A stretch of DNA of 64,000 nt from positions 434,001-498,000 of the forward strand of contig NZ_JAPVBH010000002.1 of the NCBI RefSeq assembly GCF_026967795.1, written 5' to 3'. Below the pieces are notes generated by a model that did not search any database, was not told where the DNA came from, and saw only the letters and a list, made by a program, of their open reading frames with translations. Source of the DNA: Modestobacter sp. VKM Ac-2986. GTDB lineage: Bacteria; Actinomycetota; Actinomycetes; Mycobacteriales; Geodermatophilaceae. Shown one piece after another: positions 18,314 to 56,648 of this stretch; position 1 is the stretch's first letter, and every line of letters starts with the position of its first letter. A program made the translations under genes and the position numbers.

Positions 18314-18354
18314 GGTCACCTGATCGCCGTCGTCCCGACGGTGATCAGGTGACC
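18314..18354 (+). terminator. Hairpin after aceE
   Basis: The arms 18314-18331 and 18337-18354 are 18 bp long with one mismatch and a 5-nt loop, beginning 11 bp past the aceE stop. It would serve as an aceE terminator. Its right arm is also the first half of the 29-bp palindrome of the cassette left repeat, so terminator and repeat overlap. Confidence 0.65.
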
Positions 18355-18412
18355 TGATCACCGTCTGTCCCCCCTCACCAGCATTGGTGAGGGGGGACAG
18401 TTGTTGGTGAGG
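18337..18412 (+). repeat. Left 76-bp inverted repeat of cassette 1
   Basis: It starts with a 29-bp odd palindrome (18337-18365, centre 18351). A perfect hairpin with 16-bp arms, 18365-18380 and 18385-18400 with a 4-nt loop, follows, then a TTGGTGAGG tail. Aligned by eye, its reverse complement matches 19523-19598 at 68 of 76 positions with no gaps. Confidence 0.85.
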
Positions 18413-18498
18413 CAGGACGGCGGTCCCCAGGCCCGGGCGTCGTCCACAGATCGGCCGGTGGCGTCCCTGTCACCTCGGGGACGACAGACCGTGTCGGC

Positions 18499-19512
18499 GT
18501 GCACCCGCTGCTGGACGACGCGATGAGACGCCACGCCGGCGTCTTCACCACCTCCGAGGCGCTGGCGGCCGGTGTCGACCGCAACGCCATCGCCCCGCTC
18601 GTGCGTGCCGGCACCTGGCGACGGCTCCGGTACGGGATCTACACGACAGGCGAAGTGTGGCGACGACACGAGGTGGAAGGCCGCACGCACCGGCTGGACT
18701 GCGCCGCCGCACTGCGGCGGCTCGGCGCTCCGGGGGCGACGGTCAGCCACACGTCGGCCGCACGACTGCACGGGCTGGTCGTCCCGAGGTCCCTCGACCA
18801 CGGGGTACGACTGACCGGCCCGGAGCAGTGGCGCACCGGCCGCGGGTACCGGATCAGCGCAGCCTCGCTGCCACCGGCGGACGTCGTGGTGCACGAAGGA
18901 CTGCCGATCACCGCCGTCACCCGAACACTCGCCGACGTGGGCCGGGAATGGTCGTTCACCGACACGGTGGTCGCCGTGGACGACTCACTGGCCGACGGCC
19001 GGACGACACTTCCGCAGCTGCAAGCCGCCGCGCTGGCCCAGACGCACTGGGTCGGCTGCGGCGACTCGGCACGTGCCTTCGGTGCGGCCCGGACCGGCGC
19101 GCACTCACCGCACGAGACCAGGACGCGGCTGGCACTACTGGCCGCCGGGTTGCCCGAGCCGTTGCTGCAGCAAGCCGTCCTGCTCGATGGCCGACTCGTC
19201 GCCGTCCTGGACATGTACTGGCCTGAAGCGGGCGTGTTCGTGGAGTGCGACGGGATGGTCAAGTACGCCGATCCGTGGCGCGGGCGCACCCCGGCCAAGG
19301 TCTTGTGGGCGGAGAAGCGCCGCCAAGACCACCTGCTGGACCTCGACCTGCACGGTGTGCGGGTCGCTCCGGACGACCTGCGCACGGACTGGCAGGCGAA
19401 GGTCGAGCGCCTCGGGACGCTGCTCGCGCGAGGCCGTGGGCACTCCCCGCGCTACCGGACGACGGCGTGGAACGGCGGACTGCGCACGCCGCACCGGGCC
19501 GCCACCGCCTGA
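18499..19512 (+). CDS. AbiEi-like winged-helix plus DUF559-like nuclease protein
   Basis: A 337-residue solitary protein. The N terminus (about residues 5-60) resembles the AbiEi-type winged helix (GVFTTSEALAAGVDRNAIAPLVRAG then RRLRYGIY, with the helix and wing in order). The middle resembles the AbiEi body (SHTSAARLHGL, TAVTRTLADVGREW). The C terminus looks like a DUF559/Vsr-type endonuclease core: E249 and D251 in VFVECDGMVKY and E272-D277 in EKRRQD. The final Arg usual after this strand in DUF559 is not clear. It could be the antitoxin-like arm of a TA system, but there is no AbiEii toxin gene nearby. Start GTG at 18499. The stop is 10 bp from the right repeat. Function unknown; a nuclease acting on DNA is the best inference. 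Confidence 0.75.
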   Translation: MHPLLDDAMRRHAGVFTTSEALAAGVDRNAIAPLVRAGTWRRLRYGIYTTGEVWRRHEVEGRTHRLDCAAALRRLGAPGATVSHTSAARLHGLVVPRSLDHGVRLTGPEQWRTGRGYRISAASLPPADVVVHEGLPITAVTRTLADVGREWSFTDTVVAVDDSLADGRTTLPQLQAAALAQTHWVGCGDSARAFGAARTGAHSPHETRTRLALLAAGLPEPLLQQAVLLDGRLVAVLDMYWPEAGVFVECDGMVKYADPWRGRTPAKVLWAEKRRQDHLLDLDLHGVRVAPDDLRTDWQAKVERLGTLLARGRGHSPRYRTTAWNGGLRTPHRAATA

Positions 19513-19522
19513 CGCCGTCCGA

Positions 19523-19598
19523 CCTCACCAACGTCTGTCCTACCGCAGCAACGCTGGTGAGGGAGGACAGACGGTGATCAGGTCACCTGATCACCGTC
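19523..19598 (-). repeat. Right 76-bp inverted repeat of cassette 1
   Basis: The inverted counterpart of 18337-18412. It ends with the same 29-bp palindrome (19570-19598), whose centre base is C instead of G, as expected for inversion. It starts 10 bp after the nuclease stop codon and ends 25 bp before the amidohydrolase stop. It could also end transcription from both sides. Confidence 0.85.
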
Positions 19599-19623
19599 TG
19601 TCCAGCCGAGCAGCTGCAGACCG

Positions 19624-20838
19624 TCAGCCGGCGAGGGCCTGGACCGCCATGAGGGCGTACATCGCGACGCCGGCGGGGAACGCCGACTCGTCGAACACCA
19701 CCAGGTTCGAGTGGTTGCCGGGCGCGGTGGCCGGGTCCAGCTCCGGCAGCCGGGCGCCGAGGAAGGCCATCGCGCCGGGCACCTGCTCGAGCACGTAGGA
19801 GAAGTCCTCCGCGCCCATGAGCGGCTGCGGCATGACCGTGCTCGCCTCCTCGCCCAGCAGGACGGCGGCGGCCTCGGTGACCTGCGCGGCGACGGCGGCG
19901 TCGTTGACGGTCACCGGGTAGCCCTCGACCCGCACGAACTCCCCGCGCAGCTCGTGGGCGGCGGCGACGTGCTCACCGACCCGCTGGACCGACGCCACCA
20001 TGTCGGCCCGCCGCTCCGGCGACAGGGTGCGGATGGTGCCGTGCACCAGCGCGGTCTCCGGGATGATGTTGTCGGTCCGGCCGGCCTCCAGGTGCCCCAC
20101 GGTGACCACGGCGGGGTCGAAGACGTCGACGCGGCGGGTGACCATCGACTGCAGCGCCAGGATGATCTCCGCGGCCACCGGCACCGGGTCGGCGGACATG
20201 TGCGGGGTCGAGGCGTGCCCGCCGCGGCCGTGCACGGTGATCGTGAACTGGTCGGCCGAGGCCATCATCGAGCCGGGCCGCACGTTGATCGTGCCGGTCG
20301 GGAACGCAGTGGAGATGTGCAGCGCGAACGCACCGCTGACCGGGGCGTCCGGGACGACGTCGAGCAGCCCCTCGTCGAGCATGAACCGGGCGCCGTGGTG
20401 GCCCTCCTCCCCCGGCTGGAACATGAACACGACCTGCCCGGCGAGGGTGTCGCGGCGCTCGGCGAGCAGCCGGGCCGCACCGACGAGCATCGCGACGTGG
20501 GTGTCGTGGCCGCAGGCGTGCATGACGCCGGGGTTCTCGGAGGCGAAGTCCAGGCCGGTGTCCTCGGCCACGGGCAGGGCGTCCATGTCCCCGCGCAGGA
20601 GGTAGGTGGGCCCGGGACGGCCACCGCGCAGCACGCCGACCACCGAGGTGGTGCTTGTGCCGGTGGTGACCTCGATCGGCAGGTCGGCCAGCGCCTCCAC
20701 GACGAGCGCCTGGGTGCGCGGCAGCTGCAGTCCGATCTCGGGCGTGCGGTGCAGGGCGCGGCGGAGCTCGACCGTGCGGTCGGCGTCGGCGCGGGCGGCG
20801 GCGAGCAGGTCAGCGGCAACGGATGCGTCGGCAGGCAT
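19624..20838 (-). CDS. M20-family amidohydrolase
   Basis: A 404-residue cytoplasmic metallopeptidase-like hydrolase of the M20D group (hippurate/N-acyl-amino-acid/IAA-amide hydrolases). Motifs for the two-metal site are visible: the HACGHDTH motif (GVMHACGHDTHVAML), the FQPGEEGHHGARFM segment with the catalytic Glu-Glu pair, and the later MGAEDFSYVL histidine/Glu region. A small dimerisation domain lies between (FTITVHGRGGHASTPH). It cleaves an amide bond of an N-acylated compound; the natural substrate cannot be told. I chose ATG 20838 over 20856 because the first residues of family members match MPADAS. It is tail-to-tail with cassette 1. Confidence 0.9.
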   Translation of the reverse strand: MPADASVAADLLAAARADADRTVELRRALHRTPEIGLQLPRTQALVVEALADLPIEVTTGTSTTSVVGVLRGGRPGPTYLLRGDMDALPVAEDTGLDFASENPGVMHACGHDTHVAMLVGAARLLAERRDTLAGQVVFMFQPGEEGHHGARFMLDEGLLDVVPDAPVSGAFALHISTAFPTGTINVRPGSMMASADQFTITVHGRGGHASTPHMSADPVPVAAEIILALQSMVTRRVDVFDPAVVTVGHLEAGRTDNIIPETALVHGTIRTLSPERRADMVASVQRVGEHVAAAHELRGEFVRVEGYPVTVNDAAVAAQVTEAAAVLLGEEASTVMPQPLMGAEDFSYVLEQVPGAMAFLGARLPELDPATAPGNHSNLVVFDESAFPAGVAMYALMAVQALAG

Positions 20839-20892
20839 GCGCCCAGTCTGTAGCAACGCTCACGACCACGGGAACCCGCTAGCGTGCCGCGC

Positions 20893-21492
20893 ATGTCCTG
20901 GGACGACAGCCGCCGATCGTCCACCGAGGCCGCGCACTGGTTCCTGTCCACGGTCGACCGGGTGGGCGACCGGTGGACGGCGCCCGGCCTCGGCGAGTGG
21001 GACGTGCGCGCCCTCGTCGGCCACACCAGCCGGTCCTTCCTCACGGTGGAGAGCTACCTCGCCCGGCCCGCCGCCACCGTCGAGGTGGGCTCGCCGGCGG
21101 ACTACTACGCGGCCACCCGGGCGATCGCGTCCTCCCCGGACGTCGCCGCGCGCGGACGGGACGCCGGCGCCGCGCTGGGTGCCACTCCTGCCGCCGCCCT
21201 GCACGAGATCGCCGCGCGGGTGCTCACCCTGGTCGGCACCTGCGACGGGACCGAGCTCCTGACGACGATCGCCGGCGGCATGCGGCTGGCCGACTACCTG
21301 CCGACCCGGACGTTCGAGCTGGTGGTGCACGGCCTCGACCTCGCCCGGGCACTCGGTGAGCCGCTCGACGTGCCCGCGCTGCCGGCCGCCGAGGCGCTGT
21401 CCCTGGTGGCCGGGCTCGCAGTCACCAGCGGGCAGGCCGGAGCGCTCCTGCTGGCCGCGACCGGCCGGACGACGGGGTTCTCAGTCCTCTGA
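20893..21492 (+). CDS. Maleylpyruvate isomerase N-terminal-like (mycothiol/DinB superfamily) protein
   Basis: A 199-residue protein of the mycothiol-dependent maleylpyruvate isomerase / DinB four-helix superfamily. The opening WDVRALVGHTSRSFL is the characteristic first metal helix with a histidine, and EIAARVLTLV plus PTRTFELVVHGLDLARALG give the later helices with the second histidine. These proteins may bind a metal and use mycothiol as cofactor; the specific reaction is unknown. The ATG at 20893 gives the first conserved residues; a GTG at 20884 is an alternative. Its last 12 bp overlap the end of the convergent cupin gene. Confidence 0.82.
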   Translation: MSWDDSRRSSTEAAHWFLSTVDRVGDRWTAPGLGEWDVRALVGHTSRSFLTVESYLARPAATVEVGSPADYYAATRAIASSPDVAARGRDAGAALGATPAAALHEIAARVLTLVGTCDGTELLTTIAGGMRLADYLPTRTFELVVHGLDLARALGEPLDVPALPAAEALSLVAGLAVTSGQAGALLLAATGRTTGFSVL

Positions 21493-21999
21493 CGCCCACG
21501 CCGGCCGCGCGGCGTCCAGCTGCCAGACCAGCACCCGGTCGCCGTCGCCGGGCTCCGGGCCCACGAGCACCTCGTCACCGCGGACGACCACCTGCAGCCC
21601 GTCCGGCACGCCGGGCCCGGCGATCCCGACCCACAGCCGGGCATCGGGGCGGCCCAGGTCGACCCAGCCGCTGGGCCGCAGCAGGACGTCGTGTGCCGGC
21701 TGCGCACCCGGGGCGGCCGCCCGCAGGTACGTCTGGACGACGTGCGCCCCGCCGGCGCCGGCCACCTCGTCGTGCTCCAGCCCGCGCCCGGCCCGCAGCA
21801 CCGCGACGTCCCCGGGCCCCAGCACCGCCTCCCGCCCCCAGGCGTGGCGCAGTGAGCCGGTCAGGAGCACCGCGACCACGTCGACGTCGGCGTGCGCGTG
21901 CCACCCGTAACCGGCGTCGGCACCCAGCCGGTCGTCGGCCATCCGCAGCAGCGGGCCCAGCGACCCGTCGTCCGGCTCCAGCAGCACCCGTGAGCTCAT
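21481..21999 (-). CDS. Cupin/pirin-like protein
   Basis: This 172-residue protein carries a single cupin barrel. GYGWHAHADVDVVAVLLTG resembles the pirin N-terminal metal-binding strand (two histidines) and GPGDVAVLRAGRGLEHDE resembles its second motif. It is shorter than full pirins, so the second cupin is absent or reduced. It may be a metal-dependent dioxygenase-like or regulatory protein; the substrate is unknown. Its ATG overlaps the PAP2 stop by 4 bp (ATGA), so both belong to one transcript. Its stop is read inside the end of the convergent neighbour. Confidence 0.75.
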   Translation of the reverse strand: MSSRVLLEPDDGSLGPLLRMADDRLGADAGYGWHAHADVDVVAVLLTGSLRHAWGREAVLGPGDVAVLRAGRGLEHDEVAGAGGAHVVQTYLRAAAPGAQPAHDVLLRPSGWVDLGRPDARLWVGIAGPGVPDGLQVVVRGDEVLVGPEPGDGDRVLVWQLDAARPAWASED

Positions 22000-22652
22000 C
22001 GGGTCAGCCTGCCCGGCAGCGCGCGGGCCGCAACCGCGACCAGCAGCGACCAGGCCACCCCCAGCGCCCAGCCGCCGAGGACGTCGGACAGGAAGTGCAC
22101 GCCCAGCCACATCCGGGTGCACCCCACGAGCAGCGCGAGCAGCACCCCGGCGACCGCCGCCCGGCGGCGTCCGGCCGGTGACAGCAGCGGCCAGGCGACC
22201 ACCAGCGCGACGGTGACCAGCGTGGCCACGCCCGAGGCGTGCCCGCTGGGGAAGCTCAGCGAGTCCAGTTCCGCACCGCCCTGGGCGAACTGCGGGCGCG
22301 GCCGCCCGACCAGCTCCTTGAGCAGCGTGGTCAGCGGCCCCACCAGCACGGTGGCGGCCAGCACCCAGCCGGCGGTCCGGTACGCGCGCCGCCGCACCAG
22401 CCAGACCAGCGCCGCCAGGACGACGACCGCCCGGAACGCCGAGGAGCCGGGCGCGGTGGCCACCTGCAGCGCCGCCTCGTGCAGCCCGGACCGGTCGTCG
22501 CCGGCGTACAGGGCCTCGCTGACCGCCCGGTCCACCCGCAGCACCGGCCCGGCCCCGGCCCTGACGGCCCAGCCGAGCAGCGCGAGCACCGTGAGGCAGA
22601 GGGCGACGACCGCCGTCGGCCGACCCGGACGGGCGGTGTGCACGCGCTCCAC
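21996..22652 (-). CDS. PAP2-family membrane phosphatase
   Basis: A 218-residue, about six-helix membrane protein. The three catalytic blocks of the PAP2/lipid phosphate phosphatase family are present: KELVGRPRP, the SFPSGHASG block with its histidine, and TRMWLGVHFLSDVLGG with the third arginine, histidine and Asp. It would dephosphorylate an isoprenoid or phosphatidyl lipid at the outer face of the membrane. I chose GTG 22652 (VERVHTARPG) because it places one helix before the conserved core; the much longer frame upstream overlaps fasR and is not coding. It is divergent from fasR, with 36 bp between start codons. Confidence 0.9.
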   Translation of the reverse strand: MERVHTARPGRPTAVVALCLTVLALLGWAVRAGAGPVLRVDRAVSEALYAGDDRSGLHEAALQVATAPGSSAFRAVVVLAALVWLVRRRAYRTAGWVLAATVLVGPLTTLLKELVGRPRPQFAQGGAELDSLSFPSGHASGVATLVTVALVVAWPLLSPAGRRRAAVAGVLLALLVGCTRMWLGVHFLSDVLGGWALGVAWSLLVAVAARALPGRLTR

Positions 22653-22688
22653 GATCCCCGACGACCCGGCCCGTGACAGGCTCGGGGC

Positions 22689-23876
22689 ATGGACGCAGCC
22701 GGACGGAGCGGGGAGAACGCCCCCTCGGAGGCGACGCTGCGCCGGCTCGAGCGCGCCTCGGGCGCCCTGGCGACGCAGGCCGTGGCCCGGATGGACGAGG
22801 AGCTGTCCTGGTTCCGGGCGATGCCGGCGGCCCAGCGCTCCTGGGTGACCCTGGTGGCCCAGGCCGGGATCGCCTCCCTCGTCGAGTGGTGCCGCAACCC
22901 CGGCCGTCCGCCGAAGCTGACCGGTGAGGTGTTCGGCGCCGCGCCCCGCGAGCTGATGCACGCCGTCCCGCTCAAGCGCTCGGTCGACCTGATCAAGGTC
23001 ACCGTCGAGGTCGTCGAGGACCGGGTCGGACAGGTCGCCGAGCCCGGGGACGCCGACCGGCTGCGGCTGACCGTGCTGCAGTTCAGCCGGGAGATCGCCT
23101 TCGCCGCCGCGCACGTGTACGCCAGCTTCGCGGAGAACCGCGGCGCCTGGGACGCCCGGCTGGAGGCGCTCGTCGTCGACGCCCTGGTGCGCGGCGACCG
23201 CTCCGAGGAGCTGCCCGGCCGGGCCGCCGCGCTGGGCTGGGCGGAGACCGAGCCGGTGTTCGTGCTGGTGGGGTCCGCGCCGCCGGACGGGCAGGACGCC
23301 CGCGCCGCCGTCCGGCGGGCCGCCCGGTCGCTGGGCTGCGAGGTGCTGGTCGGGGTGCACGCCGACGAGCTGGTCGTCGTCCTGGGCGGGGCCGCGGACC
23401 CGGCTGCGGTGACCGGCCGGGTCTGCCGGGAGTTCGGGCCGGGCCCGGTCGTGCGGGGTCCCCGGGTCGAGTCGCTGGCCCGTGCCGGGGAGTCCGCGAC
23501 CGCCGCACTGGCCGGGCTCCGCGCCGCGGCCGCCTGGCCCGACGCACCCCGGCCCGTGGAGGCCGAGGACCTGCTGCCCGAGCGCGCCCTGGACGGCGAC
23601 CCGCTGGCCCGGGCCGCGCTGTCGGAGCGGGTCGCCTCCCCGCTGCAGGACGCCGGCGGTGAGCTGCTGGAGACGGTGCGCACCGTGCTGGGCACCGGGG
23701 GCAACCTGGAGGCCAGCGCCCGCGCGCTGTTCGTGCACACCAACACCGTGCGCTACCGGCTCAAGCGCGCCGCCGAGCTCACCGGGTGCTCCGCGACCGA
23801 CCCGCGCGGGGCCTGGACGCTGCAGCTGGCCCTCGCCCTCGCGCAGCTCGAGGGCGACCGCTCGCTCTGGAACTGA
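22689..23876 (+). CDS. fasR: PucR-like transcriptional regulator of fatty-acid synthesis
   Basis: This 395-residue protein has a helical N-terminal half and a PucR C-terminal helix-turn-helix, seen as LLETVRTVLGTGGNLEASARALFVHTNTVRYRLKRAAELTG (split here for length: helices LLETVRTVLG, LEASARALF, NTVRYRLKRAAEL). The equivalent gene lies directly before fabD in Streptomyces (FasR, SCO2386) and mycobacteria (Rv2242). In Streptomyces it activates the fabD-fabH-acpP-fabF operon. Position, orientation and domain plan support the same role here. The effector is probably acyl-ACP/CoA derived, but nothing in the sequence shows it. Start ATG 22689. Confidence 0.85.
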   Translation: MDAAGRSGENAPSEATLRRLERASGALATQAVARMDEELSWFRAMPAAQRSWVTLVAQAGIASLVEWCRNPGRPPKLTGEVFGAAPRELMHAVPLKRSVDLIKVTVEVVEDRVGQVAEPGDADRLRLTVLQFSREIAFAAAHVYASFAENRGAWDARLEALVVDALVRGDRSEELPGRAAALGWAETEPVFVLVGSAPPDGQDARAAVRRAARSLGCEVLVGVHADELVVVLGGAADPAAVTGRVCREFGPGPVVRGPRVESLARAGESATAALAGLRAAAAWPDAPRPVEAEDLLPERALDGDPLARAALSERVASPLQDAGGELLETVRTVLGTGGNLEASARALFVHTNTVRYRLKRAAELTGCSATDPRGAWTLQLALALAQLEGDRSLWN

Positions 23877-24022
23877 CCGCCCCAGTTGTGGCCTCACCCA
23901 CCGACACGCGGCCGCGCGCGCGGTTGACGCGGTCGCAGTTGTAGGGATCCTCCAAAGATCCACGGGTGTTGTTCGTGGGCGATGCCAGCCCGCGCGCGCC
24001 GCCGGAATGGCACGGTGAACAT
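23877..24022 (+). promoter_or_regulatory. fabD promoter region, probable FasR target
   Basis: A 146-bp gap between fasR and fabD. It contains TTGACG at 23924-23929, a possible -35, and A/T-rich patches (AAAGAT, TAGGGAT) but no -10 at convincing spacing. By analogy with Streptomyces it should carry the FasR operator; the site itself is not identified here. Confidence 0.3.
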
Positions 24023-27945: not shown

Positions 27946-27974
27946 GAACCGCCTCTCGCTCTGAGGAGCTGTTC

Positions 27975-38682: not shown

Positions 38683-38780
38683 GTCATCTCAATCATCTGC
38701 TGGGCGATGTGCTGCGTGCCGCCGATCAGCGGTCGGCGTCCTCCGCCACCGCCGGCTCCCGTTCCGCGCGGGAGCGGCGG

Positions 38781-39665
38781 TCAGCCCTCGACCACCTGCT
38801 CGGCGGTGTCGGTCAACGCCTGCTGCGCCTGCGCCCAGGTGGTGTCCTCCGGGAACTCGCCGAGCAGCACGACCACCCGGCCGTCGGTGAGCACCCCGGT
38901 GGAGTGCAGCTGGCGGCTGCCCTCCAGGCAGCACATCCAGCCCTGCTTGGCCGCGACCGCGCCGTCGGTGTCCGCCTGGGCCGACAGCAGCCCGAAGGAC
39001 TGGCCGAACCCGTCGGCGGCGGTGGGGGTGGTCGACTGCATCCAGGTGGTCAGCGTGGCCAGGTCCGCAGGTGACAGGTGCGCGTCGAGGGAGGCCAGGA
39101 AGGTCGCGTAGTCCGCCGCCGTGGTGGTCGTCTCGCCCCACTGCCCGGACCGCTCGGGAGCAGCGGTGTCGTCCAGCCCGAACTCCGCGGCGGCGGCGGT
39201 GACCAGCTGTGCGCCGCCGAACTCGACCCACAGCACGTTCATCGCCTCGTCGTCGGAGAGCTCCACGGCCCGTTGCATCCGCACCAGGTCGTCGCCGTCC
39301 AGGGTGACCGTGCCGGCGGCGTCCCGCTCGAGCAGCTGCTGGACGACGAAGAGCTTGGCCAGCGAGGCGGTCCAGTGTGTCTCCCCCGCGGCGGCGGAGG
39401 GCACCAGCTCGTCCCCCGAGGCGTCCAGCGCCACCACCGAGATGGTCCCGCCGCCCGCCTCGACCGGCGGGTCGCCCCACAGCGCCGACACGTCCACCAC
39501 CTCGGTGTGCGCCGCCAGCCAGCCGGCCAGGACCACGGAGAGGACGAGACCCAGGAGCCGGGGGCCGCGCCGGCGCCGACCCGGCCGGCCGTGGCGGTAG
39601 GTGGTCGGCGCCTCCGCGTGAGGGGCACGGCTGACGGGGGCGCGCAGCAGGGAGGTCTCGGTCAC
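38781..39665 (-). CDS. Membrane-anchored class A beta-lactamase-like serine hydrolase
   Basis: A 294-residue protein with an N-terminal basic segment and one membrane helix (RLLGLVLSVVLAGWLA, residues 37-51), so it faces outside. The beta-lactamase/D-Ala carboxypeptidase motifs are S101-x-x-K104 (TASLAKLF), the SDD(E)AMN element at 137-143 and K240-Q-G where KTG is usual. The KQG variant suggests an altered specificity or a non-lactamase role, such as a peptidoglycan-acting or signalling protein. I chose GTG 39665; the longer frame overlaps the response-regulator region. It is divergent from the two-component pair, with a 123-bp gap to its start codon. Confidence 0.83.
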   Translation of the reverse strand: MTETSLLRAPVSRAPHAEAPTTYRHGRPGRRRRGPRLLGLVLSVVLAGWLAAHTEVVDVSALWGDPPVEAGGGTISVVALDASGDELVPSAAAGETHWTASLAKLFVVQQLLERDAAGTVTLDGDDLVRMQRAVELSDDEAMNVLWVEFGGAQLVTAAAAEFGLDDTAAPERSGQWGETTTTAADYATFLASLDAHLSPADLATLTTWMQSTTPTAADGFGQSFGLLSAQADTDGAVAAKQGWMCCLEGSRQLHSTGVLTDGRVVVLLGEFPEDTTWAQAQQALTDTAEQVVEG

Positions 39666-43857: not shown

Positions 43858-43979
43858 CCTGCTGTGCCGTCGTGCGCGCCCCGGCGCACGACGGCACACG
43901 GGAGGGGCTGCGCACTGGGGACGTCGACGTGTCCACCGGAGGCGCTTCGACGGCCGACGGGCCGGGTACCCCCTCCGCA

Positions 43980-44009
43980 TCGACACGAGCCGCAGGGTGC
44001 GGTTAAGGT
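43980..44009 (+). promoter_or_regulatory. Promoter of the Cys leader peptide / TauD transcript
   Basis: Putative -35 TCGACA at 43980-43985 and -10 TAAGGT at 44004-44009, spaced 18 bp. The -10 ends 7 bp before the leader ATG, so transcription probably starts at or next to that ATG (a leaderless mRNA). Read from pattern only. Confidence 0.5.
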
Positions 44010-44016
44010 AATTCCT

Positions 44017-44106
44017 ATGAGATCGGTAGGGATTGTGCAGTGCGCGCTCGTCGAGCGCCGGCACATCGACCTGCTGCGGTGCGCGAGTGCGCTCTGTCTC
44101 GACTGA
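44017..44106 (+). CDS. Cysteine-containing leader peptide of the TauD gene
   Basis: A 29-residue ORF, with ALVERRHIDLLRCASALCLD at its C-terminal end. The (V)ERRHIDLxRxxSAxC pattern is the well-known actinobacterial leader-peptide type placed before sulfur and cysteine-metabolism genes. Three Cys codons (9, 22, 27) allow translation-dependent control by Cys-tRNA availability. The ATG lies 7 bp after the -10, so it is probably leaderless. It ends 43 bp before the TauD gene, which has its own ribosome binding site TGGAG. The mechanism (attenuation or translational coupling) is inference. Confidence 0.75.
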   Translation: MRSVGIVQCALVERRHIDLLRCASALCLD

Positions 44107-44149
44107 GCACCCGCCGCCCCGCCCGCACCCCCTCCCCTGGAGTCCTCGC

Positions 44150-45040
44150 ATGACCCTGCTCGCCAGCCCCACCACCGCCACTGCCGCCGAGCCGTCCGTG
44201 CTCGAGATCGAGCGCCTGGAGCCGACCATCGGCGCCCGGGTGCACGGTGTCGACCTCGACCGCGCCACCGACGAGCAGATCGTGGCCATCCGGGCCGCGC
44301 TCGCCGAGTACAAGGTGCTGTTCTTCGCCGACCAGCACGACCTGCACCCCGACAGCCAGATCGCGCTGGGCCGCCGGCTCGGTGAGCTCACCGAGTCCCA
44401 CCCGGTCGTCCCGGGCGTCGACGAGGACCACCCGGAGATCTACGCGCTCGACAGCGCCAGCGGTGGCTTCGCCGACATCTGGCACACCGACGTCACCTTC
44501 GTGCGCCGTCCTCCGCTGGGCTCGGTGCTGCGGGCCGTCGTGCTCCCGCCGACCGGCGGGGACACCCAGTGGGCCGACCTCGAGCTGGCCTACCGCTCGC
44601 TCAGCGAGCCGGTGCAGCGCCTGGCCGACCAGCTGGTCGCGGTGCACGACGGCACCCGCGAGTTCGGGTACTACCTGGCCCAGCGCGAGGAGCGCACCAA
44701 GTGGGAGGGCGAGGAGTTCCGCGCCCTGGTCCCGATTGAGCACCCCGTCGTCCGGGTCAACCCCGACACCGGCCGCAAGGGCCTGTTCGTCAACCCCGGC
44801 TTCGTGTCCCACATCAAGGACGTCTCCGACGCCGAGAGCCGCTACCTGCTCGACCTGTTCTACGCCCACATCACCAAGCCCGAGCACATCGTCCGGCACC
44901 GCTGGTCGGTCGGTGACGTGGTCATGTGGGACAACCGCTCGACCGTGCACTACGCCAACCGCGACTACGGCACCCAGCGCCGCGTGATGCACCGCATCAC
45001 CTTCCGCGGCGAGGAGCCCGTCGGGCCGCTCGCGTCCTGA
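44150..45040 (+). CDS. TauD/TfdA-family Fe(II)/2-oxoglutarate dioxygenase
   Basis: A 296-residue dioxygenase with the facial triad H112-x-D114 (WHTDVTF) and H267 (STVHYAN), plus the 2-oxoglutarate arginine in MHRITFRG. The family releases sulfite from taurine and alkyl sulfonates or sulfates. The leader peptide upstream with sulfur-responsive pattern suggests a role in sulfur scavenging; the exact sulfonate is unknown. The ATG at 44150 has TGGAGTCC upstream. No tauABC transporter genes are adjacent in this window. Confidence 0.9.
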   Translation: MTLLASPTTATAAEPSVLEIERLEPTIGARVHGVDLDRATDEQIVAIRAALAEYKVLFFADQHDLHPDSQIALGRRLGELTESHPVVPGVDEDHPEIYALDSASGGFADIWHTDVTFVRRPPLGSVLRAVVLPPTGGDTQWADLELAYRSLSEPVQRLADQLVAVHDGTREFGYYLAQREERTKWEGEEFRALVPIEHPVVRVNPDTGRKGLFVNPGFVSHIKDVSDAESRYLLDLFYAHITKPEHIVRHRWSVGDVVMWDNRSTVHYANRDYGTQRRVMHRITFRGEEPVGPLAS

Positions 45041-45101
45041 GCCCCGCTACGACGAGGCGCTGTCCCGGACGGGATGGCGCCTCGTCGTGTGTCCGGGCAG
45101 G

Positions 45102-49379: not shown

Positions 49380-49444
49380 AGCCGGCACGGGTTGCGATCT
49401 GGACTGGTCCGTGGACCGCACCGACCCGCCTCGGCGCGGCAGAC

Positions 49445-49478: not shown

Positions 49479-49485
49479 CGGCTTG

Positions 49486-49558: not shown

Positions 49559-49691
49559 TCAGCGGGCCGTGACCCGCGGACTCGTCAAGGTTACTACACC
49601 GTGGGAGGGGTGTCGGGGCAGGGGTTCTCGGCGGGTCGTCCGCGGAACCGGCCGGTACCGTCAGCACTCCCCCGAACCCAGGAGGTCCCTC

Positions 49692-49901
49692 GTGGCCAAG
49701 CTGTCCTTCCTCGCCGGCTTCGGCGCCGGCTACGTCCTCGGCGCCAAGGCCGGCCGCGAGCGCTACGAGCAGATCCGTCGGCTCTACGCCTCGGCCAAGG
49801 ACGACCCGCGTCTGCAGGCCGCCGCCGGTGTCGCCCAGGCCCGCGCCGACGCCGCCGTCGACTCGGTCAAGACCCGCATGGGCACCGACACCGGCCACTG
49901 A
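49692..49901 (+). CDS. Small YtxH-like protein
   Basis: A 69-residue protein with a hydrophobic N terminus (KLSFLAGFGAGYVLGAKAG), then a charged helix (RERYEQIRRLYASAKDDPRL) and a short tail. The pattern is that of YtxH-like small actinobacterial membrane-associated proteins. It is preceded by AGGAGGT (49680-49686), 6 bp from the GTG at 49692. The function is unknown. Confidence 0.8.
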   Translation: MAKLSFLAGFGAGYVLGAKAGRERYEQIRRLYASAKDDPRLQAAAGVAQARADAAVDSVKTRMGTDTGH

Positions 49902-49908
49902 CCGCGGT

Positions 49909-50448: not shown

Positions 50449-52328
50449 AGGCCGCCGGCCGCCCGGGTGCGCAGGGCCCGGGCCAGCGCCTCGAGGTCGA
50501 TCAGCTTCTGGAACATCTTCATGTAGCCGTCGGAGTCCTCGACCGGGTTGGTGCGCTGCAGCCGGCCCTTGATCGCCACCAGCTCACGCTCGGCCGCCAT
50601 CAGCTGCAGCCGGGCCATCAGCGCGTTGACGTAGGTGGGGTCGTTCTCCCCCACCGAGTGCATCGGCTCGACCGCCAGCGCGGTCAACATCGCCTTGGCC
50701 GACTCCCGGTCGCAGTGCTCGGTCACCTCGTCCAGCCAGGCCGCGCCGGACGTCGTCGCCCCGGCCGCTCCCCCGGCACCGGAGACCGCCGCGGCCACCG
50801 CCGCGTAGTCCGGGTCGGTGTAGGCCTCGGCCGGGACGGCGTCGAAGTCGGGCCCGGCGAGCTCGGGGCACTGCAGCGCCGCCTTCACCGCCTCCCGCTC
50901 GACCTCACGCGCGGCGTCCTCCGGGGAGCGCTGCGGCGCGCGGCCCCGGGACGGCGGCCGCTTCTCCCCCACCCCGTCGCCACCCTGCTGACGCAGCCGG
51001 GCCACGACCTCGCTCTCGTCGGGCAGGCCGAGCAGCCCGGCCAGCCGACGGGCGTAGGCGGGACGCAGCGCGTGGTCCTTGATCTGGGCCAGCAGCGGCG
51101 CCGTCTTGTCCAGCGCGGCGACGCGGCCCTCCACGGTGTCCAGGTCGTACTCGGCCAGGTGCGTCCGCAGCACGAACTCGATCAGCGGCGTGCGCCGGGC
51201 GATCAGGTCGCGCACGGCGGCGTCCCCGTGGGCCTGGCGCAGCTCGCAGGGGTCGCGGCCCTCCTGCTCGACCGCGACGAAGGTCTGCGCGACGAAGCGC
51301 TGGTCCTCCTTGAACGACTTCATCGCCGCCGCCTGGCCGGCCGCGTCGCCGTCGAAGGTGTAGATCACCTCTCCGCGGAACTCGTCCTGGTCCATCAAGA
51401 GCCGGCGCAGCACGTTGATGTGCTCCGGCCCGAACGCGGTGCCGCAGGAGGCGACGGCGGTGGTCACGCCGGCCACGTGGCAGGCCATCACGTCGGTGTA
51501 GCCCTCGACGACGACCGCCTGGTGGCTGCGGGCGATCTCCCGCTTGGCCCGCTCGACGCCGTAGAGGACGGTGCTCTTCTTGTACAGCGGCGTCTCGGGG
51601 GTGTTGAGGTACTTCGGGCCCGGGTCGTCGTCCATCAGCTTGCGGGCGCCGAAACCGATCACGTCACCGGTGAGGTCGCGGATCGGCCAGATCAGCCGGC
51701 GGTGGAACCGGTCGATGAGCGTGCCGCGGGAGGACTCCTTCGCCAGCCCCCCGGTGACCAGCTCCTCCTGCGTGTAGCCCAGCCCGCGCAGGTGCCGGGT
51801 CAGGGTGTCCCAGCCGGCGGGGGCGTAGCCGCAGTTGAAGTCCAGCGCGACCTGCCGGTCGAAGCCGCGGTCGGCCAGGAAGCTGCGGGCCGGCGCGGCG
51901 TCGGGCGTCATCAGCTGGACGGCGTAGAAGTCCGCAGCCGCGGTGTTGGCCGCCACCAGCCGGGCTCGCTGGCCGGCGTGCGCGCGGTCGGGGCCGGCGG
52001 TGGCGCGGCCGCCGTCGTCCTCGTACTGCAGCTGCACCCCGGTGCGGCCGGCGAGCAGCTCGACAGCCTCGGAGAAGGACAGGTGGTCGATCTCCTGCAC
52101 GAAGCGGATGACGTCACCACCGACCCCGCACCCGAAGCAGTGGTACAGCCCGCGCGAGGGCGTGACCTGGAAGGACGGCGACTTCTCGTCGTGGAACGGG
52201 CACAGCCCCTTGAGGCTGCCGCCGCCCGCACGCTTGAGCTGCAGGTGCTCGCCGACGACCTCGTCGATCTTCGACCGCTCGCGGACCGTGGCGATGTCCG
52301 CGGCCCGGATGCGTCCCCGGCCGGGCAT
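50445..52328 (-). CDS. dnaG: DNA primase
   Basis: A 627-residue primase that lays RNA primers at replication forks. The N-terminal zinc ribbon is C43/H46 and C64/C67 ([20 protein letters not shown]). The TOPRIM domain shows [11 protein letters not shown] and YTFDGDAAG. The helicase-binding C-terminal part is present. The start ATG at 52328 ([15 protein letters not shown]) overlaps the stop of the upstream gene. In mycobacteria dnaG likewise lies not far from glyS and uppS. Confidence 0.96.
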
Positions 52329-52807
52329 CAGACGGCCGCCGCGGCCGCGGCCCAGCGTCGGCCGAGGACGAGCTCGACCCACAGCAGGAAGACCGCGTGG
52401 TCCAGGGACAGGTCGGGGGCCGTGGTGAGCGTGGGCCGCGGGTTCCACGACCCGGTCGTGTCGCTCTCGGCCAGCTGCCGGCCGTCGACGGTGTAGCGGT
52501 GGGTGCCCTTCCAGCGGGACGCCGACGTGACCTCGACGGTCATGCCGTCCAGCTCCGCCGTCCAGGTGCCGTTCCAGTACGACGTCTGCCGCGCCCGCAG
52601 CCGGACGGCGTCCTCGGGGTCGACGGCCCAGCGGGCGGCCAGCTCGCGGCCGGCCTTCCCGAAGACCCAGGACCGCCCGGCCACCTCAGCGGTCGCGGAC
52701 TCCTTCCAGTTCGACGCGTGCAGCGTCGCCACGACGGCATCGCCCTCGAGCACCGGGACGGTGCCCTTCGGCAGGTCGTGCGACGCGCTCTTGCCCAGCT
52801 CCAGCAC
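52328..52807 (-). CDS. Conserved hypothetical protein upstream of dnaG
   Basis: A 159-residue protein rich in beta-strands and tryptophans ([44 protein letters not shown]), reminiscent of a LURP-one/scramblase-like sheet, without certainty. Its stop overlaps the dnaG start by 4 bp. No signal peptide. Confidence 0.78.
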
Positions 52808-52819
52808 TGTCTCTCCTCC

Positions 52820-53449
52820 TCAGCCGATGCCCGGTGCCCCGGCGACGCTCTCGCCGGTCGCGCGGTAGAGCAGGTAGGCGGCCGTCTCGCGCACGATGTA
52901 CCGCAGCTGCGTGGTGCGCGTCTGCACGGCCGGGCCCTGGCGGGTCGGCGAGCTGGTCGCGTCCATGCTGGCGTCGGACGCCATCCGCTGCGCGCGCATG
53001 GCGTGCCACGGGTCGGTCACCAGGACGGCGGTGCGCCAGCCCTGCCCGTCGAAGGTGCCGGCGACCGCCCGCACGCTCTCCAAGGTGTCCTCGCCCTCCT
53101 CGACGGCGAGCAGCGCCTCCGCCGGGACGCCGGCGTCCAGCAGGTACCGCCGGCCGGCCTCCGCCTCGCTGTACTGGTCACCCTCGGCCTTGCCGCCCAC
53201 GGTCACCACCCTCGGCGCCACGCCGTCGGTGTAGAGCGACAGCGCGTGCTCCAGCCGGGCCTCGAAGATCGAGGACGGGACGCCGTTGTACTGCGCCGAC
53301 CCGAGCACCACGATCGCGTCGGACCCGGGCCGGTCGTCCTGCCGCGCGGTCCACCAGATGGCCAGCCCCGTGGCCCCGGCGAGCAGCAGCACCGACGTCA
53401 CCGCGGCACCCACCACCCGCACGACCAACTGCCCCGCCGACGCTGCCAC
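52820..53449 (-). CDS. YdcF/SanA-like DUF218 membrane protein
   Basis: A 209-residue protein with one N-terminal membrane helix (VVGAAVTSVLLLAGATGLAIW) and a DUF218 domain: AIVVLGSAQYNGVPSSIFEARL and the following GGKAEGDQ plus EDTLESVRAV motifs. The family is linked to envelope polysaccharide or vancomycin-type barrier functions in E. coli (SanA). Start GTG 53449 is near ACGG. It sits 12 bp before the next gene of the dnaG operon. Confidence 0.88.
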   Translation of the reverse strand: MAASAGQLVVRVVGAAVTSVLLLAGATGLAIWWTARQDDRPGSDAIVVLGSAQYNGVPSSIFEARLEHALSLYTDGVAPRVVTVGGKAEGDQYSEAEAGRRYLLDAGVPAEALLAVEEGEDTLESVRAVAGTFDGQGWRTAVLVTDPWHAMRAQRMASDASMDATSSPTRQGPAVQTRTTQLRYIVRETAAYLLYRATGESVAGAPGIG

Positions 53450-53508
53450 CCGTCATGGGTACCACGCGACGCGCCGGGTGCGGGGAGCCGCTGGGGGCGG
53501 CCCGTCGC

Positions 53509-53967
53509 TCAGCCCGTGACGCGGGTCCCGCAGACCTTCGTGCCGCCCTCGGGGACCAGGGTGAGCTCGGTGGTGGTGACCGTGCCGGCGTCGTCCCAGC
53601 GCACCGTGACCAGCTCGGCCGGCGCACCCTCGTACTCGCTCGACTGCGTCCCGGTCACCTGCGGGGTGCCCGGCTGCAGGTACTCCGCGGCCAGCTGGTC
53701 CGGGGGCACCGCGGCCCGCACGTCGTCGCAGATCAGCGCGTACGAGGTGGTCAGGTCCCCCTGCGACAGCGCGGCGGTGAAGACGGTGGCGACCTCCCGG
53801 GACTGGTCGGCCCCGTTCCCGTTCCACACGTTCATCAGCACGACCATGGTCACCGAGAACAGCGCCGTGCCGCCCAGCAGGCCGAGGACCAGGCCGTTGC
53901 GCTGGCGCGGCTCGGCGGTGTGCAGCGGCGCCGGGCCGTCGTCGTAGAGGAACGGTCCGGTGGTCAT
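53509..53967 (-). CDS. Membrane-anchored hypothetical protein
   Basis: A 152-residue protein with one membrane helix (GLVLGLLGGTALFSVTMVVLMNVW, near residues 24-47) followed by an extracytoplasmic domain with two cysteines (LICDDVRA, TKVCGTRV) that may form a disulfide. The fold resembles DUF4878-like small secreted domains. GAGGCGGCAG supports ATG 53967; the longer start 54009 would overlap dus. Confidence 0.7.
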   Translation of the reverse strand: MTTGPFLYDDGPAPLHTAEPRQRNGLVLGLLGGTALFSVTMVVLMNVWNGNGADQSREVATVFTAALSQGDLTTSYALICDDVRAAVPPDQLAAEYLQPGTPQVTGTQSSEYEGAPAELVTVRWDDAGTVTTTELTLVPEGGTKVCGTRVTG

Positions 53968-53998
53968 CTGCCGCCTCGGGTCGTGGTCACGACGGGCG

Positions 53999-55159
53999 TC
54001 ATCCGCCACCCACCAGGAGCTCGGCGCCGGCAGGCGGGCGCGGGTCGTCGCGGTCGTCCAGCCAGCCCTCCGGCAGCGACACCGGGCGCGCCGACGTCGT
54101 CCGTCCGCGGGGCTCGCCCAGGACCGTCTGCGGGTAGGGCTGGTCCTCGATGCCGGCCAGCAGCTCGGCCAGCTCGTCGAGGCTGCTGACCATGGCCAGG
54201 GCGCGGCGGGTGTCCGAACCGACGGCGAAGCCCTTGAGGTACCAGGCCACGTGCTTGCGGAAGTCCGCGCAGCCGTAGGCCTCCTCGCCGTGCTCGGCGA
54301 CCAGCAGCGTCGCGTGCCGGTGCATCACCGCGGCGACCTGGCGGAAGTCGGGCAGCGTGCGCTGGGTGGACCCGGCGAAGGCAGCGGCCAGGTCGGCGAA
54401 CAGCCACGGGCGCCCCAGGCAGCCCCGGCCCACGACGACGCCGGCGCAGCCGGTCTCGGCGACCATGCGCAGCGCGTCGTCGGCCTCCCACAGGTCGCCG
54501 TTGCCCAGCACCGGGATGTCGACGGTCTCGACCAGCCTCGCGATGGGCGCCCAGTCGGCGGTGCCGCTGTAGAGCTGGTCGGCGGTGCGCCCGTGCAGGG
54601 TGATCGCCGCGGCGCCGGCGTCCTGGGCGATCCGTCCGGCGTCGAGGTAGGTGGTGTGCTCGGGGTCGATGCCGATGCGGGTCTTCACCGTCACCGGGAC
54701 GTCGCCGGCGGCCTGGACTGCGGCCCGCACGATGTTGCCGAACAGCACGCGGCGCCACGGCAGCGCCGAGCCACCGCCCTTGCGGGTCACCTTGGGCACC
54801 GGGCAGCCGAAGTTGAGGTCGATGTGCGCCGGGCGGGTGCCGGCGACCTGCTCGTCGACCAGCATCGACACCGCGCGGCCCACCGTGGCCGGGTCGACGC
54901 CGTAGAGCTGCACGGAGAACGCGTCGGCCTCGTCGGTGGTGGCCTGCACCATCCGCAGCGTCTTCTCGTTGCGCTCCACCAGCGCGCGGGTGGTGATCAT
55001 CTCGCAGACGTACAGGCCGGCGCCGAACTCCCGGCACAGCGTGCGGAACGCCGGACCGGTGATCCCGGCCATCGGCGCGAGCACCACCGCCGGGTCCACG
55101 GTCAGCTTCCCCAGCTGCAACGCCGGCAGCGCCGTCGCGCGCTCGAGGGTGCTGGTCAC
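53999..55159 (-). CDS. dus: tRNA-dihydrouridine synthase
   Basis: A 386-residue FMN enzyme that reduces uridines in tRNA. The signature is LAPMAGITGPAFR, the catalytic cysteine is C119 (NFGCPVPKVTRKGGG), and phosphate/FMN binding is in VVVGRGCLGRPWLF. The DusB subfamily is the best match. It is the first gene of the minus-strand transcript that runs to dnaG. GTG 55159 (VTSTLERATA) was preferred to an upstream start because the extension (MAAPACPRAH) lacks conservation. Confidence 0.92.
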   Translation of the reverse strand: MTSTLERATALPALQLGKLTVDPAVVLAPMAGITGPAFRTLCREFGAGLYVCEMITTRALVERNEKTLRMVQATTDEADAFSVQLYGVDPATVGRAVSMLVDEQVAGTRPAHIDLNFGCPVPKVTRKGGGSALPWRRVLFGNIVRAAVQAAGDVPVTVKTRIGIDPEHTTYLDAGRIAQDAGAAAITLHGRTADQLYSGTADWAPIARLVETVDIPVLGNGDLWEADDALRMVAETGCAGVVVGRGCLGRPWLFADLAAAFAGSTQRTLPDFRQVAAVMHRHATLLVAEHGEEAYGCADFRKHVAWYLKGFAVGSDTRRALAMVSSLDELAELLAGIEDQPYPQTVLGEPRGRTTSARPVSLPEGWLDDRDDPRPPAGAELLVGGG

Positions 55160-55255
55160 GCCCCCAGGGTAGGTGCCCCGGCTGTGTGCCCGGGGACACG
55201 CCGGAGCGGCCACCTCGCCGTCCCATCCGGCTCGACCCCTCGGCGTCCCTGGCGC

Positions 55256-55327
55256 GGGTCAACCCGGGCCAGGTGACGTCGAACCGCGCCGTGGCACGGC
55301 CCGACGTCAGGTCGACCGGGTCAACCC
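55256..55327 (+). repeat. Left palindromic block of cassette 2
   Basis: A 72-bp near-palindrome opening GGGTCAACCCGGG and ending GGGTCAACCC, with centre GCCGTGGCACGGC. By eye, compared with the right block in the same orientation, 58 of 72 bases match (54 of 72 with it inverted). Because it is itself nearly palindromic, its orientation is ambiguous. Confidence 0.75.
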
Positions 55328-55463
55328 GGGCGGCGGCCCAGTCCACCCGGGGGCCTACCGCGCGTCCGGGTCTGGTGTCCGTGACCGTCCCCGTCGGCCC
55401 CACCGGTCCACAGGTCGCCCGGTCGGGCCACTCCGCCGGCGATCACCGATCACGCTGCCTGGG

Positions 55464-56531
55464 GTGCGCGCTCCCCTCTCCGTCCCGACTGCCGTGGCCG
55501 AGCCAGGACGGCGACGGCTCGGCATCTTCACCACCGCCGACCTGACCGCCGTCGGTGTCGGTGAACGGGAGGTCCGGACGGCGGTGCGCACGGGGACGTG
55601 GGTGCGGCTGCGCACCGGCGTCTTCGTGACGGCCGGGGACCTCGCCGAGGTGGAGCGCACCCGACGCCGTCCGGGACTGGACGCGCTCGCCGTGACGACC
55701 AGCCTGGGCCGCCCGTCCGCTGTCCTCAGCGGAGCGACCGCGGCCTGGGTGTGGGGCCTCCCGAGACCGCGGGCGGCGGAGCCGGTGGTCGAGTTGACCG
55801 ACCCGGATCGCTGGCGACGCGGTCGCGGATGGCGGATGACCCGCGCCGTCCTCTCTGAGGACGAGGTGACCGTGCGCGGTGCGTACCCCGTGACGACGGC
55901 GGCCCGGACCCTGGTCGACGTGGCCCGCTCGTGGCCGGAGGTGCACGCCGTGGCCGCCCTGGACGCTGCGCTGTTGCGCGGGCTGACCACCCGGAGCCAC
56001 GTGGCCCAGGTGCTCGACCGACAGGCGTTCGTACCCGGGATCCCGCGAGCCGTGCGCGCTCTCGCCCTGGCAGACGGGCGGGCCGAGTCCTGGCTCGAGA
56101 CGTACGGCCGGCTGGCCTTCGCCGCGCTCGGGTTGCCGCCCTTCATCCCACAGGTCGAGCTCTGGGTGGACGGACAGCTGCTCAAGGTCGTCGACGGCTG
56201 GTACCCCGAGGCGGCGGTGGCCGTGGAGTTCGACGGGCAGGTGAAGTACCGGCAGCCCGCCTTCGGCCGGACCCCGGCGGAGGAGTTGTGGCAGGAGAAG
56301 CGCACGGAGGACCTGCTCCGCTCGCTGGGGATCCGCTTCGTCCGGCTCTCCGCCGCTGACCTCGGCGACCAGCGGCCCGCCGTCGCGACGACGGTCCACC
56401 GACTCCTGGCGACGCCCGGCCCCCTGGCCCGCGCCTTCCAGGAAGCGCCCCGGGCCGTGGGGCGGCCACGGGACGGAGAGGTGGGTGACGACGGGTGGTT
56501 GTCCCGGGTCGACGACCGGGTCGGAGGGTGA
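55464..56531 (+). CDS. AbiEi-like winged-helix plus DUF559-like nuclease protein (locus 2)
   Basis: A 355-residue protein, the paralogue of the 18499-19512 product. The N-terminal winged helix is LGIFTTADLTAVGVGEREV then TWVRLRTGVFVTA. The AbiEi-type body holds LSGATAAWVWGLP and TTAARTLVDVARSW. The nuclease-like core is E255/D257 (VAVEFDGQVKYRQ) and E278-D283 (EKRTEDLLRSLG), with IRFVRLSAADL as the last strand. The C-terminal tail (VGRPRDGEVGDD) is specific. I chose GTG 55464 because the longer frame reaches back over the repeat and is not protein-like. No partner toxin or methylase gene is adjacent. Confidence 0.72.
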   Translation: MRAPLSVPTAVAEPGRRRLGIFTTADLTAVGVGEREVRTAVRTGTWVRLRTGVFVTAGDLAEVERTRRRPGLDALAVTTSLGRPSAVLSGATAAWVWGLPRPRAAEPVVELTDPDRWRRGRGWRMTRAVLSEDEVTVRGAYPVTTAARTLVDVARSWPEVHAVAALDAALLRGLTTRSHVAQVLDRQAFVPGIPRAVRALALADGRAESWLETYGRLAFAALGLPPFIPQVELWVDGQLLKVVDGWYPEAAVAVEFDGQVKYRQPAFGRTPAEELWQEKRTEDLLRSLGIRFVRLSAADLGDQRPAVATTVHRLLATPGPLARAFQEAPRAVGRPRDGEVGDDGWLSRVDDRVGG

Positions 56532-56539
56532 GCTGACGG

Positions 56540-56611
56540 GGGTCGAACCGCGTCACCTGACGTTGAGCCGCGCCGTGGCACGGCTCAACGTCAGGTCACC
56601 CGGGTTGACCC
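56540..56611 (-). repeat. Right palindromic block of cassette 2
   Basis: A 72-bp block 8 bp past the nuclease stop codon. It contains a perfect 15-bp hairpin, CCTGACGTTGAGCCG with CGGCTCAACGTCAGG, and ends CCCGGGTTGACCC. It lies upstream of the glyS stop region and could end both converging transcripts. Confidence 0.75.
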
Positions 56612-56648
56612 GGGCTGCCGCACCCGGAGCAGGTGCGGCAGCCCCAGC

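Follow-up and report, generated by a model that had tools for sequence, protein, structure and literature searches.

Identity of two palindrome-flanked nuclease genes

What is a solitary gene for an AbiEi-like winged-helix protein with a Vsr/DUF559-like nuclease domain doing between two copies of a palindromic block, and why does the same design occur twice in one stretch of DNA? The window considered here, the whole 64,000-nucleotide stretch from Modestobacter sp. VKM Ac-2986 (contig NZ_JAPVBH010000002.1, positions 434,001 to 498,000), holds two such loci. Genes of this family lie between paired palindromes, the palindromes are cognate to the nuclease, copies without the gene are dispersed between genes, and sites occupied in one genome are empty in another. 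On balance we consider it probable, if well short of certain, that these are small elements akin to repetitive extragenic palindromic (REP) sequences and their REP-associated tyrosine transposases (RAYTs), in which a Vsr-like nuclease unrelated to RAYTs lies between its own palindromes and gene-less blocks are dispersed. The family looks like an apparently unrecognised kind of small mobile element.

To score pairing, we aligned locally the 450 bp upstream of a gene with the reverse complement of the 300 bp downstream, and obtained 122 for locus 1 and 65 for locus 2, compared to a median of 26 and a maximum of 45 for 1684 random window intervals, which confirms the paired blocks around an AbiEi-like/DUF559-like gene that a sequence-only reading of this DNA had described at both loci. 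At locus 1, gene 1 (18499-19512, plus strand, 337 aa) encodes an AbiEi_4 winged-helix N-terminus and a Vsr/DUF559-like nuclease domain with the conserved acidic residues E206, D238 and E249. The left block (18314-18422) consists of an outer palindrome A (GACGGTGATCAGGTGACCTGATCACCGTC), an inner palindrome B and a partial repeat, with an extra A half at its front (18314-18332), and the right block (19513-19603) has the mirrored order of partial repeat, B and outer A. The inverted-repeat arms (18337-18422 and 19513-19598) measure 86 nt, are 88% complementary and each contain internal palindromes; the left block lies ~76 bp ahead of the gene start and the right arm begins directly after the stop. 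At locus 2, the left (55252-55327) and right (56540-56615) blocks pair as 76-nt arms with 75% complementarity around gene 2 of the same family (55482-56531, plus strand), whose open reading frame (ORF) is open from 55173 (55173-56531), with homology to the family only from about 55482; if this is the start, the left block lies ~154 bp ahead of it. The two proteins are 41% identical over 285 residues. The block length of 72-76 bp given by the sequence-only reading does not hold for locus 1, its 86-136 bp from left block to start have to be corrected to the two distances above, and its 8-10 bp from stop to right block do not apply to locus 1. The core common to both loci, TCAGGTCACC, is indeed there, and with up to one mismatch occurs 15 times in the window versus 5.7 expected (0 of 100 shuffles reach 15; 6 of the 15 lie inside blocks). 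As a family-wide feature we rejected it, since reading the blocks of the other seven families in the same genome did not reveal the exact core.

Searching the Modestobacter sp. VKM Ac-2986 genome itself (G000; 4.19 Mb, 15 contigs) with a family profile gave ten matches, of which one is a true Vsr and the other nine are proteins that combine an AbiEi-like N-terminus with a Vsr/DUF559-like C-terminus. Eight of the nine nuclease genes are clearly situated between paired palindromic blocks and one (L003, score 38) marginally so. Scores exceed 40 for L001 (122), L007 (66), L002 (65), L274 (59), L275 (53), L004 (48) and L006 (46), with L274 and L275 scored in slightly wider windows, while L005, with a 39-nt, 90% inverted repeat, scores 34 because its gene start is mis-predicted. 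The nine palindromes are nearly all distinct, only those of L004 and L007 being alike (at block score 40). The true Vsr (L276, G000:C13:252736-253134), beside a C5 cytosine methylase, served as negative control: it lacks paired palindromes and scores 18. We therefore rejected the identification of the family as the Vsr patch-repair gene, the genome's real Vsr being elsewhere and without blocks.

Block pairing in the genus, the phylum and on plasmids

The sequence-only reading had proposed a family of palindrome-plus-nuclease elements, REP/RAYT-like or homing-cassette-like, to be checked through block pairs at other members, co-variation of protein and block, empty sites and HHpred of the protein. 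That proposal is supported far beyond two loci. Neither of the two outcomes that would have spoken against it occurred, as other members do have block pairs and their proteins do co-vary with the blocks; empty sites were found as well, and the protein matches support a Vsr-like fold. In 23 genomes of the genus a protein search found 148 matches; the analysis used 115 loci (7 + 28 + 80), or 114 from 22 genomes once one duplicate was removed. Their median pairing score is 58, compared to a median of 24 and a maximum of 42 with shuffled downstream DNA; 91 of the 114 score above 40, whereas none of 66 neighbouring genes do (median 27, maximum 40). When upstream and downstream flanks were mismatched within one genome, 4 of 660 pairs exceeded 40, and random mismatched pairs had a median of 26. 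All four comparisons, with random intervals, shuffles, neighbouring genes and flanks mismatched within a genome, speak against chance pairing, which we rejected. The genus count misses loci such as L381 (G008), whose two blocks are different palindromes that are alike at their ends.

In the phylum, 83 of 197 genomes have matches to the family profile. Outside the genus we took 69 loci (29 + 40), all among the best matches, of which 68 were testable, and 34 of these scored above 40 versus 7 of 4302 mismatched between-genome pairs and 1 of 48 neighbouring intervals. A DUF559 query against plasmids gave 25 records; among the 18 scored, DUF559 genes from three other phyla, 8 exceeded 40 (Sinorhizobium meliloti, Pseudanabaena, four Deinococcus, Azospirillum lipoferum and Sphingomonas), versus 0 of 51 annotated coding sequences hand-chosen from annotation tables (maximum 27). 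Paired blocks also accompany DUF559-only genes, many of about 112-135 aa. A single-protein query (P0001) retrieved only 3 loci from genome contigs and no match from plasmids. On four Deinococcus plasmids, DUF559 genes (L393, L397, L399, L400) lie at different places in the hydroxyphenylacetate (hpa) gene group, three of the four with paired palindromes, and these differing positions suggest repeated insertion.

Palindromes are cognate to their nuclease

Comparison of 4090 locus pairs revealed that a block is common to 83% of the 163 pairs with protein identity of at least 0.7 and to 0-1% of those below 0.5. Among non-syntenic pairs the correlation between protein and block is also present (rho 0.126; 0 of 300 permutations as high), and 10 of 18 such pairs with identity of at least 0.7 share a block. 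Six of these ten involve L162, which has one flank in common with its partners and thus does not represent a clean relocation. A clean relocation of unit and block is seen for L146 versus L124 and L139 (66% protein identity, block scores 68-69), which have no flanking genes in common over about 3.6 kb. Within one genome, protein and block are uncorrelated (rho 0.03), and just 2 of 206 pairs of different nucleases have matching blocks. The A core persists, with a different B, in L094, L097 and L109, relatives of gene 1 at about 45% identity.

Dispersed copies, occupied and empty sites

Locus 1 lies between the pyruvate dehydrogenase E1 gene (aceE) and an M20 peptidase gene. By eye, 20 genus genomes at this site fall into 8 with the unit, 1 with an inverted gene remnant and 11 with neither, and G020 lacks the unit although its aceE is 95% identical. 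Of the 11 sites with neither, 8 carry a terminator-like hairpin and 3 a different palindrome, and in three of the 11 genomes no M20 gene was found beside aceE. The palindromes also turn over at sites where they stand without the gene, as A-B-A, A-B or B-A forms of the locus-1 block with ~63 bp between successive A cores (GATCAGGTSACCTGATC). At a first such site A-B-A is found in G000, G012, G010, G013 and G021, other palindromes are found in G020, G006, G008, G007 and G003, and nothing comparable in several genomes; in G009 the element, which lies between convergent genes, is broken (L309, 272-1468) by a gene with rve integrase-core and helix-turn-helix matches, apparently an insertion sequence. 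At a second site, the abutting stops TGA|TCA (TGATCA) of G001 and G005 are split in G009 by an A-B-A copy. Syntenic comparison over 60-70 kb with two relatives yielded one clear solo insertion.

If palindromes belong to nucleases, the eight foreign palindromes taken from these places, three between aceE and M20 and five from the first solo site, should match the blocks of another nuclease of the family. Of 120 loci compared, only those of the L275-type nuclease have blocks that match six of the eight (best scores 57-72, next lineage at most 31). Four of these six lie in genomes that have this nuclease (G020, G008 and G006).

We then counted A cores in 23 genus genomes, including copies beside the gene. 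In the ten genomes that have a gene with this core in its blocks there are 14, 33, 27, 12, 5, 9, 7, 37, 5 and 22 copies (14 in G000 and 37 in G010), whereas the thirteen others hold none in ten cases (five of these genomes being 67-80% complete) and 2-4 in three, one of which has a gutted gene between both blocks. Core number is associated with gene presence in a rank test (p 1.5e-5, or 1.9e-4 if the genomes without such a gene are restricted to the eight complete ones). The outer arms of A vary between copies, and at positions 2, 3 and 5 they co-vary more strongly than in any of 300 shuffles.

Where the copies lie bears on a different explanation, namely that the palindromes are bidirectional terminators or mRNA-end hairpins, kept and spread by host selection and gene conversion, and that the nuclease genes are there by accident. 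In its favour, a crude gene caller places 61 of 68 non-edge core copies (gene-unit copies included) no more than 150 bp from a gene 3' end, with 19 between two such ends, and none of the 68 inside an ORF; moreover, the terminator-like hairpin kept at 8 of the 11 aceE sites without unit or remnant was not seen, by eye, where the unit sits. Termination and host selection would not lead one to expect that neighbouring genes are without such pairs (0 of 66), that the blocks of one gene match each other when different nucleases of a genome so rarely share one, or that core numbers follow the cognate gene across genomes. The neighbours of locus 2 are a dihydrouridine synthase gene (minus strand) and a class II tRNA synthetase gene; against terminators, too, its left block sits at the 5' end of the former, immediately upstream. 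We regard accidental association with terminators as unlikely, and note that a terminator function at 3' ends may be the reason why copies are tolerated there.

About equally improbable, in our judgement, is that solo palindromes are scars and the blocks themselves immobile, the gene unit moving like a homing cassette and being lost afterwards by deletion between the two blocks. The A-B-A form is the expected product of joining the outer parts of two blocks, the gutted gene L278 (G018) still lies between both of its blocks, and frame-shifted genes occur, all as scars would predict. Deletion does not readily account for the two solo sites, where no genome has a gene unit in the 230 bp read (a few rows ended at contig ends or were ambiguous), nor for up to 37 core copies in G010 versus one gene with this core found there, nor for palindromes of different nuclease lineages at one site in different species. 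As for gene remnants elsewhere, family remnants L277 (G003) and L278 (G018) are located directly upstream of dnaK (Hsp70; scan of L278 only).

A predicted Vsr-like fold and purifying selection

Seven aligned family members were scanned against Pfam, revealing AbiEi_4 (PF13338) in 3, DUF559 in 4 and the MTES_1575 restriction endonuclease domain in 4, along with a weak DUF2726 match and no transposase family. Profile searches against PDB structures retrieved 3hrl (E 0.009) and 3r3p, the homing endonuclease I-Bth0305I (E 0.02), with weak restriction-enzyme-like matches. An AlphaFold2 model built from 4 sequences (mean predicted local distance difference test score, pLDDT, 63.8) matched AbiEi (6y8q, E 0.02) and the I-Bth0305I catalytic domain (probability 1.00, template modelling score, TM, 0.68 of target, E 0.065) in Foldseek. 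The profile and structure matches together support a Vsr-like fold. E206, D238 and E249 are conserved in 110, 109 and 108 of the 114 genus loci, nearly all the rest being gaps, and by their place in the predicted fold they are the likely catalytic residues.

The family genes are under purifying selection, with ratios of non-synonymous to synonymous divergence (dN/dS) of 0.17-0.34 over 10 pairs. Between G000 and G012, synonymous divergence (dS) is 0.66 for the gene and 0.16 for the end of aceE, compared to 0.08 and 0.16, respectively, between G013 and G001, a contrast that hints at exchange between strains.

All seven aligned members match PADLOC AbiEi models and this, like the restriction-enzyme-like matches, would fit a nuclease of defence or toxin type whose own palindromes act as marks of self, being spared by it or titrating it. 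The direct neighbours of both window genes include no toxin partner or methylase, and such a role leaves the turnover of palindromes at many sites unexplained; we give it very little weight.

A conserved box ahead of the gene

Between the left block and the gene of both loci lies a further motif: at locus 1 a DnaA-box-like sequence, TCGTCCACAG (18440-18449, plus strand), with the core GTCCACA, and at locus 2 GTCCACA itself (55406-55412, plus strand). GTCCACA or its complement is present in the upstream window of 96 of 113 genus loci and in 0 of 114 downstream windows, compared to a background of 24 per 400 kb. TTRTCCACA, which we take to be the DnaA box consensus, occurs with up to one mismatch at 64 of 113 genus loci (reversed sequence, 8) and 32 of 68 loci elsewhere in the phylum (reversed, 4), in the genus mostly 30-77 bp ahead of the domain start; the exact 7-mer is found at 10 of 68 loci outside the genus versus 4 for its reverse. 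The box keeps a near-fixed distance, occurs in both orientations and is constant although the palindromes differ. The 1.5 kb behind the genome's own dnaA contain only 2 GTCCACA and 1 ATCCACA. By resemblance to this consensus, we designate the box a putative DnaA box.

A box at this place would also suit an operator arrangement, in which the AbiEi domain represses its own gene through inverted repeats and the solo copies form a regulon. AbiEi of Streptococcus agalactiae is described as binding two inverted repeats of its own promoter and repressing it (PMC3985639). Operators of this kind do not account for a second block behind the stop codon, for core copies mostly at gene 3' ends, or for DUF559-only genes that have paired blocks too, and we consider this explanation highly improbable.

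Proposed mechanism

We favour a model in which a solitary Vsr-like (DUF559-type) nuclease gene, in Actinomycetota fused to an AbiEi-like winged-helix domain, would form a unit with the two copies of its own block, the blocks dispersed between genes being its non-autonomous copies; its working plan would be that of a REPtron with an unrelated enzyme. The AbiEi/winged-helix part may recognise the cognate dyad as duplex, cruciform or single-stranded hairpin, the PD-(D/E)XK domain would cut or nick at the dyad or at the target, and repair would then copy the block elsewhere, for the most part to junctions that directly follow a stop codon. The S. agalactiae AbiEi, with its affinity for inverted repeats (PMC3985639), provides a precedent for such recognition. 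Movement or exchange of the unit as a whole would be rarer, and its frequent decay would leave blocks behind. Binding, cutting and mobilisation, as well as cutting as the driver of spread, are inferred.

A number of observations weigh against this model. Three genomes without an intact cognate gene still hold 2-4 A cores, the grouping of genomes for the core counts was set after the counts had been seen, the genomes are related and hence not independent, and the group with a cognate gene includes frame-shifted genes in G008 and G010. Comparison of junctions by eye brought out neither a target-site duplication nor a fixed target sequence. Among the six foreign palindromes with a match, two are in G007, where the L275-type nuclease was not found at E 1e-20, and only two (G020 and G008, first solo site) fit the copy in their own genome, the others fitting the lineage in another genome; several of the six may represent one inherited insertion, and the remaining two of the eight (G003, G019) have no convincing partner. 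In non-syntenic pairs the co-variation, though significant, is weak, since divergence soon erases the block sequence. We set the threshold of 40 by the scores of the neighbouring genes once these had been seen, and 90 of 2280 random mismatched genus pairs exceed it, presumably orthologues that occupy one site. No block pair is seen at half of the phylum loci, although these were drawn from the best matches, nor at 10 of the 18 plasmid loci; among the latter, mismatched pairs score up to 81, because several of the G+C-rich palindromes are similar and therefore not independent. Finally, the structure model is only of moderate quality, its best Foldseek E value being 0.02.

Relation to known systems

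Among described systems, REP/RAYT (REPtron, REPIN; TnpA-REP) is nearest by working plan and is excluded as a class because the enzyme differs. As far as the cited portions of PMC3116915, PMC8266576 and PMC3733652 describe them, such systems have a solitary enzyme gene between palindromic repeats, related repeats that are single or dimeric and mostly beside gene 3' ends, and enzyme-specific repeat types within one genome, and all of this recurs here as a palindrome-flanked solitary enzyme gene with dispersed, enzyme-specific intergenic repeats mostly at 3' ends. The enzyme of the Modestobacter family is a Vsr-like PD-(D/E)XK nuclease by its predicted fold, whereas RAYTs are Y1/HuH tyrosine transposases, and we rejected membership in the RAYTs since the Pfam scan of seven members gave no transposase family. 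Up to nine palindromes per genome, nearly one per nuclease, also set this family apart, and no constant tetranucleotide tag (cf. GTAG) was noticed at the stem foot, for which no systematic search was made. TIRtrons share long inverted repeats around a solitary enzyme gene, and their enzymes, the TIRYTs, are in turn tyrosine transposases (PMC3733652, in part).

I-Bth0305I (3r3p), a Vsr-like homing endonuclease, resembles the family in its catalytic domain by profile and fold. The unit has empty and occupied alleles; a free-standing homing endonuclease would cleave the empty one. In contrast to I-Bth0305I, the family is palindrome-flanked and has an AbiEi-like N-terminus, and no intron or intein was seen around the gene. 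With the AbiE type IV toxin-antitoxin system it shares the AbiEi_4 winged-helix domain of a protein that binds inverted repeats (PMC3985639, in part), and differs from it in the added nuclease domain and in a block on both sides; no AbiEii nucleotidyltransferase toxin is among the direct neighbours of the two window genes, the only loci scanned for it. Caulobacter VsrA, a solitary Vsr-like endonuclease, has a DUF559/Vsr-like domain as well, and the paper on it (PMC12907096) does not contain the word palindrome. In the open-access full-text literature, as judged by title and abstract and with subscription papers and preprints outside this scope, we found no published account of an association between such nucleases and palindromes.

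Short palindromic repeats are common in bacterial genomes, and the only enzyme class tied to them in the cited portions of these papers is the RAYT/TIRYT tyrosine transposase. If our model is true, a second, unrelated enzyme class would serve palindromes, with about one palindrome family per enzyme, and there would be a function for the abundant DUF559 domain and for genes annotated as orphan AbiEi antitoxins. It would explain many intergenic palindromes in Actinomycetota and provide many natural protein-DNA pairs for direct tests of co-evolution with purified proteins. More speculatively, and with considerable doubt, solitary DUF559/Vsr-like nucleases might, across phyla, be a general second class of enzymes that serve palindromic repeats separately from the RAYTs, each lineage maintaining and spreading a palindrome of its own. 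On the same tentative footing, the Actinomycetota element might be tied to chromosome replication through the DnaA box, and such nucleases could partner REP types without a transposase such as the CGTC REPs, described along with REPtrons and TIRtrons in PMC3733652, the cited portion of which reports no dedicated transposase for CGTC palindromes.

Other features of the window

Elsewhere in the window, a degenerate solo copy of the L274 palindrome, whose nuclease is at G000:C8:147234, lies at 3980-4052 (70% over 70 nt, E 3e-7). A weak copy of an L275-type palindrome near position 1803 (E 7e-3) was not used as evidence. Two segments of the window differ strongly from G020: at 43859-45093 about 1.2 kb are missing there, and at 38738-39572 the window has 0.8 kb versus 4.2 kb in G020.

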